Below, piece by piece: positions 56,962 to 60,749 of a stretch of 64,000 nucleotides of DNA. Positions within the stretch are counted from its first letter, which is position 1. Each line of letters begins with the position of its first letter. The notes under the pieces are model-generated. The model saw nothing but the letters and a program-made list of their open reading frames with translations. It ran no database searches and was not told the DNA's origin. A program made the translations under genes and the position numbers. Source of the stretch: Armatimonadota bacterium. GTDB lineage: Bacteria > Sysuimicrobiota > Sysuimicrobiia > Sysuimicrobiales > Humicultoraceae. The stretch is taken from the NCBI GenBank assembly GCA_031081715.1, contig JAVHMA010000005.1, positions 1 to 64,000 of the forward strand. Reading direction: 5' to 3'.

Positions 56962-59400
56962 CTACCTGGCGACCACGTTCACGAGCCGGCCGGGCACGAC
57001 GACGACGTCGGCCACGGTCTTGCCGTCCAGGTGCTGCCGGATCTTCGGGTTGGCCAGCGCGAGCGCGCGCGCCTGCTCCGCGCTGATACCCGCGTCCACC
57101 TCCACCCGGTCGCGCACCCGGCCGTTCACCTGGAGGACCAGGGTCACGCGCGGTGCGGTCGCCTTCGCGGCGTCGTAGGCCGGCCAGGGCTGATCGTGGA
57201 CGCTGTAGGCACCACCCAGGTGTTCGACCCACAGCTCCTCGGCGATGTGCGGGCACAGCGGCGCCAGCAGCAGGACCAGCGCCCGGACGGCCTCGTCCCA
57301 CAGCGACGCCGACGCCGAGGTCTGCGCGCGCTGCAACACGTTGGTGTACTCCATCAGCGCGGCGAGCGCGGTGTTCCAGCGAAACCCCTCCATGTCATCG
57401 GTCACTCGCCGGATGGTGCGGTGCATCCAGTATTCCAGCTCGCGGGCCGACACGCCCGCGCCCGCCGCCACGGTCTTCGCTGGGCCGGTGACCAGCGTCC
57501 AGACCCTGGTCAGGAACCGGGCGACGCCCTCGATACCCCGCGGGTTCCACGGGCCGCCCTGATCCCAGGGCCCGATGAACATCAGGTACGCGCGCAGGGT
57601 GTCGGCGCCGTAGCGCCGCACCAGTTCGTCGGGGTTGACGACGTTGCCGCGCGACTTGCTCATCCGATTGCCATCAGGCCCCAGGATGATGCCCTGGTTG
57701 AACAGGCGCAGCATCGGCTCGCCGAACGCGACCAGGCCGAGGTCACGCATGACCTTGGTCCAGAACCGCGTGTAGAGCAGATGCATGACCGCGTGCTCCA
57801 CCCCGCCGGTGTATTGGTCTACCGGCAGCCAGTAGCGGCCGGCCTCGGGGTCGAACGGGCGGTCGGGGTCGTGCGGGCTTAGGTACCGGTACTGGTACCA
57901 CGACGAGTCGACGAACGTATCCATCGTATCCGTCTCGCGCCGCGCCGCGCCGCCACACGACGGGCAGGCCGTGTGCAGGAACCCCTCGTGGTAGCGTAGC
58001 GGCGACTCGCCGGTCGGCCGGAACGCGGCGTCCTCGGGCAGCCGGACCGGCAGGTCGCGGTAGGGCACGGGCACGACCCCGCACCGGTCGCAGTAGACGA
58101 TCGGGATGGGCGTGCCCCAGTAGCGCTGCCGGCTGATCAACCAGTCGTGCAGACGGTAGTGAACCTTGCGCTCGCCGATGCCGCGCCGGACGATCTCGTC
58201 GGCCACCCGCCGCCAGCCCTCGTCCGATGGCAGCCCGTCGAAGGGCCCGGAGTTGACCATGGTCCCCTCGCCCAGGTAGGCCTCCCGGAGCGGCTGGCCG
58301 TCCCAGCCCGGCGGCGCGATGACCACCGGAACGGGCAGGTCGTACTTCCGCGCGAAGTCGAAGTCGCGCGCATCGTGCGCCGGCACGCCCATGATGGCGC
58401 CGGTGCCGTACGTCAGCAGCACGTAGTCGGCGACGTAGACCGGGACCGGCGCCTGGCTCATCGGGTTGATCGCGTAGGCGCCGGTGAAGACCCCGTCCCG
58501 CTCCCGCTCGGTGGACAGCCGCTCGATGTCCGACTCGCGGGCGGCCTTGTACTTGTAGGCTTCCACCGCCGCGCGTTGTGCCGGCGTCGTCAGCGCGTCC
58601 ACCAGTGGGTGCTCGGGTGCCAGCACACAAAACGTCATCCCGTAGACGGTGTCGGGCCGCGTCGTGAACACGCGGAACGCCGCATCCGGGTGATCGCGCA
58701 CGCGGAGCTCGAACTCGACGCCCTCGCTCCGGCCGATCCAGTTGGTCTGGAGCGTGCGCACCCGCTCGGGCCACTCGATGCCGGAGAAATCGAGCAGCTC
58801 GTCGGCGTACGCCGTGATCTTGAGGAACCACTGTTCCAGGTTCTTCTTCACGACCGGCGTGCCGCACCGCTCGCACACGCGCTCCTCGCCGACGACCTGC
58901 TCGCGCGCCAAGGTGGTGTTGTCCTTGGGGCACCAGTCCACCGGCGCCAGCGCGCGGTAGGCCAACCCGCGCTCGTACATCTTCAGGAAGAACCACTGGT
59001 TCCAGACGTAGTACTCGGGGTCGCAGGTGACCACCTCGCGCTGCCAGTCCCACATCGCGCCCATGGACCGGAGTTGCCGGCGCATGCGCTCGATGTTGTC
59101 CATCGTCCACCGGTAGGGGTGGATGCCGCGCTCGATGGCCGCGTTCTCCGCGGGTAGCCCGAAGGCATCGAACCCGATCGGCAGCATCACGTTGTAGCCG
59201 CGCCGCCGCTTGTACCGGGCGAGCGCGTCCGAGGGGCCCATGGGGTACCAGTGGCCAACGTGGAGGTCGCCCGAGGGATACGGGTACATCGTGAGCAGGT
59301 AGAACTTCGGGCGCGGGTCACCGTCGGGCGCGTGGTGCAGCCCGTCGGCCTCCCACCGGGCCTGCCACTTCGGCTCGATCGTCGCCGGGTCGTACCGCAT
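56962..59400 (-). CDS. leuS: leucyl-tRNA synthetase
   Basis: This 812-residue class Ia synthetase has HVGH (47-50), the editing domain (TRPDTVYGMTFCVLAPEHPL, TYGTGAIMGVPAHDARDFDF), a zinc-binding CDRCGVV/CPSCGG pair, and RMSKSRGNVV for KMSKS. It charges tRNA-Leu. The ATG at 59400 follows ilvE by 25 bases; both lie downstream of a T-box whose specifier is a leucine codon. Confidence 0.97.
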   Translation of the reverse strand: MRYDPATIEPKWQARWEADGLHHAPDGDPRPKFYLLTMYPYPSGDLHVGHWYPMGPSDALARYKRRRGYNVMLPIGFDAFGLPAENAAIERGIHPYRWTMDNIERMRRQLRSMGAMWDWQREVVTCDPEYYVWNQWFFLKMYERGLAYRALAPVDWCPKDNTTLAREQVVGEERVCERCGTPVVKKNLEQWFLKITAYADELLDFSGIEWPERVRTLQTNWIGRSEGVEFELRVRDHPDAAFRVFTTRPDTVYGMTFCVLAPEHPLVDALTTPAQRAAVEAYKYKAARESDIERLSTERERDGVFTGAYAINPMSQAPVPVYVADYVLLTYGTGAIMGVPAHDARDFDFARKYDLPVPVVIAPPGWDGQPLREAYLGEGTMVNSGPFDGLPSDEGWRRVADEIVRRGIGERKVHYRLHDWLISRQRYWGTPIPIVYCDRCGVVPVPYRDLPVRLPEDAAFRPTGESPLRYHEGFLHTACPSCGGAARRETDTMDTFVDSSWYQYRYLSPHDPDRPFDPEAGRYWLPVDQYTGGVEHAVMHLLYTRFWTKVMRDLGLVAFGEPMLRLFNQGIILGPDGNRMSKSRGNVVNPDELVRRYGADTLRAYLMFIGPWDQGGPWNPRGIEGVARFLTRVWTLVTGPAKTVAAGAGVSARELEYWMHRTIRRVTDDMEGFRWNTALAALMEYTNVLQRAQTSASASLWDEAVRALVLLLAPLCPHIAEELWVEHLGGAYSVHDQPWPAYDAAKATAPRVTLVLQVNGRVRDRVEVDAGISAEQARALALANPKIRQHLDGKTVADVVVVPGRLVNVVAR

Positions 59401-59425
59401 GCGCGTCCTCCCGCCGGGTGCCGGC

Positions 59426-60358
59426 TCAGGCACCGGAGAGCACGGGCACCGGGGTCAGCCAGCCGTGCCGGTCGGGCAAGCGTCCCGCGGTGATGCCGAA
59501 GAACTCCTCCTGTAGCCGCGCCGTGATCGGGCCGCGGCGGCCCGCGCCCACGGGCACGCGGTCCACGGACCGCACCGGCGTGATCTCGGCGGCGGTGCCG
59601 GTGAAGAAGACCTCGTCGGCGACATAGAGCATCTCGCGGGGGATCGGCATCTCCCGCACCTCGATCCCCAGGTCGCGGCACAGCCGCAGCACGACGGTGC
59701 GGGTCACGCCGCCCAGGATCGAGGCGGCCAGCGGCGGGGTGAGGACCACCCCGTCCCGAACCACGAAGAGATTCTCTCCGCTGCCCTCGCTGAGCGTCCC
59801 GCCCACGTCCAGGGCGATACCCTCGGCGAACCCATTGTCCGTCGCCTCCATCACGACGAACGCCGAGTTCACGTAGTTGCCGCCGATCTTGCCCATGCCC
59901 GGGTGCGTGTCCGGGGCCATGCGGCGCCAGGAACTCACCATGACGTCCACGCCCTGCTCGATCGCCTCGGCGCCGAGGTACCGGCCCCACTCGATGGTGA
60001 TCACCGCCACGTGGAGCGGGCACTTCCGGTGGTCCACGGCGAACGACTCGACGCCGCGGAACACGACCGGCCGGATGTAGCAGCTCCGGTGGCCGTTGGC
60101 GCCGACGGTGTCGAGAATCGCCCGCGAGAGCTCCTCGCGGCTGTAGGACAGCGGCATCCGAAAGATGCGGCAGGAGTCCTCCAGCCGCCGCACGTGCGGT
60201 TCCAGGCAGAAGACCGCCGGGCCGGAGGCGGTCTCGTAGCACCGGATGCCCTCGAAGACGCTCGACCCGTAGTGGACGACGTGCGCGGCCACGTGGATCT
60301 TCGCGTCCTCCCAGGGCACCAGCGCCCCGTCCATCCAGATCCGACTCGACGCCTTCAC
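59426..60358 (-). CDS. ilvE: branched-chain amino acid aminotransferase
   Basis: This 310-residue class IV PLP aminotransferase has WMDGALVPWEDAKIHVAAHV at the N-terminus, PLP Lys157 (MGKIGGNYVNS), EGIALDVGGTLSEGSGENLF and FFTGTAAEITPVRSVD. It makes or degrades leucine, isoleucine and valine. I chose the GTG at 60358, which has GGGGG nine bases upstream; GTG 60367 is in frame but has no spacing. It is the first gene after the T-box. Confidence 0.94.
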   Translation of the reverse strand: MKASSRIWMDGALVPWEDAKIHVAAHVVHYGSSVFEGIRCYETASGPAVFCLEPHVRRLEDSCRIFRMPLSYSREELSRAILDTVGANGHRSCYIRPVVFRGVESFAVDHRKCPLHVAVITIEWGRYLGAEAIEQGVDVMVSSWRRMAPDTHPGMGKIGGNYVNSAFVVMEATDNGFAEGIALDVGGTLSEGSGENLFVVRDGVVLTPPLAASILGGVTRTVVLRLCRDLGIEVREMPIPREMLYVADEVFFTGTAAEITPVRSVDRVPVGAGRRGPITARLQEEFFGITAGRLPDRHGWLTPVPVLSGA

Positions 60359-60373
60359 CGCCGTCACCCCCAG

Positions 60374-60412
60374 AAAACAGCGACGCCGCCTCGTCCCAGG
60401 GACGAAGGCGGC
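60374..60412 (-). terminator. T-box regulated terminator
   Basis: On the minus strand GCCGCC-T-TCGTC pairs with GACGA-GGCGGC around a CCTGG loop (60412-60385). A short U-tract (GTTTTC, 60378-60373) follows about eight bases later, so it is an imperfect intrinsic terminator. Its 5' arm follows the T-box element, consistent with mutually exclusive folds. Confidence 0.7.
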
Positions 60413-60445
60413 CTCCGCGGTACCACCCCGGTTGACAGGCGCATC

Positions 60446-60520
60446 TGGTGGACCCGAGGGGAATCGAACCCCTAACCTCCCGCACGCCAAGCGGGCGTTC
60501 TCCCGTTGAACTACGGGCCC
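60446..60520 (-). tRNA. tRNA-Ala(GGC) inside the T-box leader
   Basis: The 75-nt sequence folds as a full cloverleaf. The acceptor GGGCCCG pairs with CGGGTCC and includes the alanine identity G3-U70 pair. The D-arm is GTTC/GAAC, and the anticodon arm CCCGC/GCGGG has loop TTGGCGT, giving anticodon GGC. The variable loop is AGGTT, the T-arm AGGGG/CCCCT has loop TTCGATT, the discriminator is A, and CCA is encoded (60448-60446). U8, A14, A21 and the T-loop bases are conserved, so it should be charged with alanine. It is flanked by GACAGGCATC (60531-60522) and GATGCGCCTGTC (60445-60434), which pair with each other. Confidence 0.93.
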
Positions 60521-60719
60521 GGATGCCTGTCCGCTTGTCCCCGTCTCGTGGGGCCGCCGGTGGAGGCTACGGCGTCAGGTCGCCTCCACGGCTCGCGGGC
60601 GAGTTCGGCCCGGCCGCCGGTCGGATCGCACCCGCTCCCGACTCTCTCGACGGCAGCCCGTCGGCCTACTGCTCCCGGTCTTCGCCGGTCTGGCGATGGG
60701 CGACGCGCCCATCGGTGGC

Positions 60720-60749
60720 ATTATAGCCATCGGGGCGAAACAGCGTCAA
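60720..60749 (-). promoter_or_regulatory. strong promoter of the T-box/tRNA/ilvE/leuS transcript
   Basis: On the minus strand, TTGACG (60749-60744) and a perfect TATAAT (60725-60720) are 18 bases apart. Transcription should begin near 60713. A 9-bp hairpin (60694-60714) lies at the very 5' end of the transcript. Confidence 0.75.

Follow-up and report, generated by a model that had tools for sequence, protein, structure and literature searches.

Structure of the leader

The window, by which we mean the whole 64,000-nucleotide stretch of DNA analysed, carries on its minus strand the genes ilvE and leuS. Upstream of these, on the same strand, is a leader (60749 to 60374) whose elements are collected in Table 1. 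It is a real leucine T-box, and it contains a complete gene for tRNA-Ala(GGC). The preliminary description of this DNA had placed such a gene at the Stem III site of a leucine T-box, and this is borne out by covariance-model matches for both parts. The tRNA scores 66.8 bits against Rfam RF00005 (60520-60449, minus strand), well above the cut-off of 29 bits, and is called by ARAGORN as tRNA-Ala(ggc) at 60446-60520 on the minus strand with the CCA encoded. The T-box aligns with RF00230 over the full length of the model (1-219; 60691-60395, minus strand) with E=2.4e-9, and its 51.6 bits fall below the gathering score of 93. The high model scores expected earlier are thus found for the tRNA, and for the T-box in homologues that share the nested tRNA (105-133 bits), but not for the T-box of the window itself. 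The genome is GC-rich, and its further T-boxes likewise score below the cut-off; it has seven T-box matches besides this one, all without a tRNA.

Table 1. Elements of the ilvE-leuS leader and the genes downstream
Feature	Position	Strand	Basis or remark
Sigma-70-type promoter of the leader, TTGACG-18-TATAAT	60720..60749	minus	promoter scan
T-box Stem I with AGUA, AGAGAG and GGUG motifs	60592..60691	minus	Rfam alignment
Specifier codon CUC (Leu), part of GAACUC	60601..60603	minus	
Stem II, GUGGAGGC/GCCUCCAC	60560..60589	minus	Rfam alignment and sequence
Discriminator motif RRRxG (AAGCG), 5' of Stem III	60532..60536	minus	sequence; kept in homologues
Stem III, 5' strand GACAGGCAUC	60522..60531	minus	
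Complete tRNA-Ala(GGC): G3:U70, A73, encoded CCA	60446..60520	minus	
Stem III, 3' strand GAUGCGCCUGUC	60434..60445	minus	followed by AA at 60433-60432
T-box element GGGGUGGUACCGCGG and antiterminator region	60399..60429	minus	UGGU at 60425-60422; Rfam alignment
Terminator hairpin GCCGCCUUCGUCCC/GGGACGAGGCGGC	60374..60412	minus	displaced U-run at 60377-60374
ilvE, branched-chain aminotransferase, GUG start	59426..60358	minus	
leuS, leucyl-tRNA synthetase	56962..59433	minus	

In the RF00230 alignment the tRNA accounts for an insert of 82 nt that separates the strands of the last model helix before the T-box element. That helix is Stem III, so the tRNA lies inside Stem III, of which it is the apical domain, and not beside it. 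The two strands form 10 pairs with a two-base bulge and enclose the tRNA. The 10-bp helix wrapped around the tRNA in the place of Stem III, as originally proposed, is therefore upheld by the alignment, and also by the covariation described below. A review of T-boxes (PMC7583486) gives 5'-RRRxG-Stem III-AA-3' as the discriminator motif; together with the UGGN T-box element it is present in the window as AAGCG-helix-AA and UGGU. The minimum-energy fold of the domain alone is a perfect cloverleaf closed by Stem III, at -44.4 kcal/mol. This energy is unexceptional relative to shuffled sequences (z = -1.04), and minimum-energy folding of the whole leader is uninformative by the same comparison (z = -0.82), so that the case for Stem III rests on covariation.

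The strong promoter claimed for the leader stands, since the site matches the consensus at 11 of 12 positions, a match reached in none of the shuffles, and is the only promoter-like site between 60330 and 60800. At the other end the terminator stem (60412-60385) is strong, with a U-run that begins ~7 nt past it in the window leader. Owing to this displacement the terminator is absent from the output of a scan for canonical terminators. The Bacillota homologues have textbook terminators. Taken as a whole, one RNA appears from its sequence to combine a leucine sensor with the precursor of a tRNA.

The nested tRNA as a gene

The window assembly (a draft of 49 contigs, 97% complete) gives 45 tRNA matches, all of which could be classified. 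Exactly one is a tRNA-Ala(GGC), and this is the nested copy; the other alanine tRNAs have UGC and CGC anticodons, and there is one tRNA-Leu(GAG). The codon GCC accounts for 95 of the 247 alanine codons in six genes of the window. Outside the phylum of the window we counted copies in twelve genomes with the nested form, using an anticodon-arm pattern together with ARAGORN. In nine the nested tRNA is the single true tRNA-Ala(GGC), among them Syntrophomonas wolfei subsp. methylbutyratica, two Desulfofundulus species, Desulfotruncus alcoholivorax, Thermosyntropha lipolytica and a Sphaerobacter MAG; the remaining three, all Ktedonobacteria, have a second copy elsewhere. Its status as sole gene suggests that the nested tRNA is transcribed, processed and charged with alanine.

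Of 101 nested leaders, gathered with a pattern that demanded the GGC anticodon, 100 have the identity elements G3:U70 and A73, and this rules out a degenerate tRNA. The encoded CCA is missing in 21 of the 101. The anticodon loop of the window tRNA and its homologues in the same phylum, UUGGCGU, has G37 instead of the A37 that is usual for tRNA-Ala; the same loop is seen in the non-nested tRNA of family f7. Clan competition in Rfam labels some nested tRNA-Ala genes (in L249-L252, L264 and L325) as tmRNA (RF00023, 40-47 bits); for the L249-L264 cases the ARAGORN call is tRNA-Ala.

Conservation of the T-box around the tRNA

The CUC specifier of the window agrees both with the leucyl-tRNA synthetase gene downstream and with the tRNA-Leu(GAG) of the genome. 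The specifier sequence GAACUC is found in 97 of 100 nested leaders, and the RRRxG-Stem III-AA motif is kept in the nested homologues. The GCC that follows CUC in the window was considered as a second specifier, for alanine, and ruled out; among homologues this triplet varies to GUC, AUC and ACC, so that it belongs to the helix of Stem I. For Stem III we set the anchors without regard to pairing and compared true with shuffled partners in 500 shuffles, in which kinship was not preserved. The first four pairs are all formed in 60 of 96 leaders, compared with a mean of 24.9 and a maximum of 34 on shuffling. Moreover, A-U/G-C and U-A/C-G exchanges are found at two of the pairs between distant taxa. 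Thus Stem III has stayed paired about the tRNA even as its bases changed. The linker between the tRNA and the T-box ranges from 9 to 113 nt across the nested leaders. In three Chloroflexota leaders (L158, L166 and L177) there is an extra tRNA-Ala(CGC) between the promoter and Stem I, giving two alanine tRNAs per leader.

Distribution of the nested leader

How general is this arrangement? The expectation that related genomes would keep the tRNA in the leader was confirmed: the window's phylum is represented by 43 genomes, and 22 of these have the tRNA nested, namely the window genome, 20 relatives found by DNA similarity and G013. Beyond this phylum the nested pattern is found in 82 of 399 sampled genomes from the phylum of Syntrophomonas wolfei and 37 of 400 from that of Dictyobacter, with zero matches to a reversed control pattern in either tally. 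A pattern combining a tRNA arm with a T-box, tied to no amino acid, was run on a species-level genome collection. Among the matches listed, 78 of 80 loci have a called tRNA-Ala, all GGC except for one CGC; the other two are a chance match and an incomplete locus. LeuS is encoded downstream, directly or after IlvE, in 92 of 100 nested loci. In all, the arrangement is present in more than 100 independent genomes, isolates included. The LeuS tree runs mostly along phyla, which fits both old inheritance and old transfer, and a search of plasmids gave only short matches, over the tRNA part. In two Coprothermobacterota leaders (L115 and L130) the tRNA is again nested, and the Stem I of the T-box is very short. 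A solution found in no fewer than three phyla would seem to be old and stable.

Relatives in which the parts separate

Three genomes from the family to which the window belongs (G001, G004 and G007) have a leuS T-box whose Stem III is an ordinary hairpin; their tRNA-Ala(GGC) lies 0.3-3.5 kb upstream with its own promoter. The preliminary description had held that close relatives whose leader lacks the tRNA and shows assembly joins at this point would speak against it. Leaders that lack the tRNA do occur, but a tRNA found elsewhere with its own promoter, together with an ordinary Stem III, indicates evolutionary movement rather than artefact, and the nested form in the window is not an assembly join. 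Three members of another family of the order (G018, G021 and G024; leaders L321, L322 and L323) show the converse, where promoter, tRNA and terminator are kept directly upstream of ilvE while Stem I and the T-box element have been lost, leaving relic leaders. In the Chloroflexota leader L155 a promoter, tRNA-Ala(CGC), T-box element and terminator precede ilvE-leuS without a Stem I; this is apparently a T-box that lost its sensor. Leader L060 (G012) has the nested tRNA and a degenerate-looking Stem I without GAACUC. With Stem I damaged or absent in these few leaders, the switch is evidently not always kept. Since each part is found alone in relatives, the nested leader combines two functional units, and the combination has been kept for a very long time.

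Proposed function of the leader

The anatomy of the leader, the sole gene copy, the covarying Stem III, the wide conservation and the separability of the parts in relatives are all observed. We read them, with a probability of roughly three in four, as a leader of dual output that provides a constitutive pre-tRNA and a leucine-responsive T-box for ilvE-leuS. A single, constitutively started transcript would comprise both the tRNA-Ala(GGC) precursor and the leucine-specific T-box. When leucine is sufficient, the usual state, RNA polymerase would stop at the T-box terminator and the tRNA would be made; with uncharged tRNA-Leu(GAG) bound there would be read-through into ilvE-leuS, and the tRNA would be made once again. 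The tRNA is upstream of the decision point and so is contained in both the terminated and the read-through RNA, in agreement with the earlier statement that termination would still yield it. By the same token its supply should track the promoter and not leucine. The short leader RNA, waste in other T-boxes, would thereby be put to use as a pre-tRNA. Release of the tRNA by RNase P and 3' processing would also cut the Stem I/II sensor from the switch. Because a cut at 60520/60521 parts the two, the T-box decision should be taken during transcription or before cutting; were RNase P to cut very early, T-box function might be rare. It is the maturation of the tRNA from the leader transcript, the response to leucine and the order of events that we infer here.

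A closer connection between the two parts can be envisaged, in which RNase P cutting at the 5' end of the tRNA detaches the antiterminator from the leucine sensor, and processing capacity or folding of the tRNA would thereby tune leuS. Such competition between RNase P and antitermination is geometrically sound and plausible. In the nested leaders the cut site has Stem I/II on one side and the T-box element on the other, and this exact order is retained across phyla, beyond the needs of chance co-location. Yet either part is freely lost in relatives, so that neither needs the other, and the length of the linker is highly variable; we consider regulatory coupling possible, without favouring it. 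That the tRNA is a part of the regulatory logic, its maturation by RNase P contending with leucine-dependent antitermination on the same nascent RNA to gate synthetase expression, and that the arrangement persisted across phyla because this link was selected, we put forward as a tentative and rather doubtful proposal.

The tRNA might instead have fallen once into a permissive Stem III loop and been inherited without benefit, tolerated by the T-box. The apical length of Stem III varies in ordinary T-boxes in the account of PMC7583486, and the departure of the tRNA and the decay of the T-box in relatives are what a passenger might show. However, it has persisted in the Bacillota, the Chloroflexota and the window's phylum as the same tRNA before the same downstream gene, often as the sole copy, and an idle passenger is therefore unlikely. 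Less probable still is a mainly structural or regulatory role for the nested tRNA in place of a translational one, for example with its ACCA end pairing in cis with the UGGU of the T-box. That sequence is complementary to A73, as it would be with any such tRNA, and Stem III stacks on the acceptor stem in the minimum-energy fold. But with CCA absent in a fifth of the genes and so variable a linker, a conserved docking of the tRNA 3' end in cis is unlikely, and both the retention of G3:U70 and the status as the only such gene are as expected of a tRNA used in translation. Finally, although the window genome is a draft in 49 contigs, an assembly or chimera artefact is refuted by the same arrangement in the independent genomes noted above.

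Comparison with known systems

The preliminary description knew of no described example. Our literature searches gave no description of a tRNA nested in a T-box, nor was one found by term in the TBDB paper, the T-box review and an early survey; an earlier remark in other surveys is possible. The arrangement has perhaps been overlooked because annotation handles tRNA and riboswitch apart. T-boxes sense tRNA, and here the sensor RNA would also make one, often from the only such copy in the cell. A supposedly disposable leader would thus become essential, and deletion of a 'regulatory leader' could delete an alanine tRNA. In addition, the timing of the T-box decision relative to RNase P cutting becomes testable.

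In polycistronic pre-tRNAs and tRNA-mRNA operons a tRNA shares its transcript with a protein gene downstream and is presumably excised by RNase P. Here, in contrast, the tRNA is enclosed in the folded structure of a switch that itself senses tRNA, upstream of the decision point. Genes for tRNA are also embedded in other functional RNAs, in rRNA spacers or large structured RNAs, whereas the host RNA in the present case is a tRNA-binding regulator of a synthetase gene. T-boxes with curious insertions of unknown structure and function are noted in PMC7583486, and the present leader resembles them in having an insertion in Stem III. One such unexplained insertion can now be given an identity and, unlike those as described there, it is a full tRNA gene conserved across phyla. 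In the remainder of its structure the leader shares with the leuS leucine T-boxes of RF00230 a Stem I with CUC, Stem II, RRRxG-Stem III-AA, UGGU, a probable terminator and leuS downstream. It differs from them in that Stem III holds a complete tRNA-Ala(GGC) gene, by which the leader would be a pre-tRNA as well.
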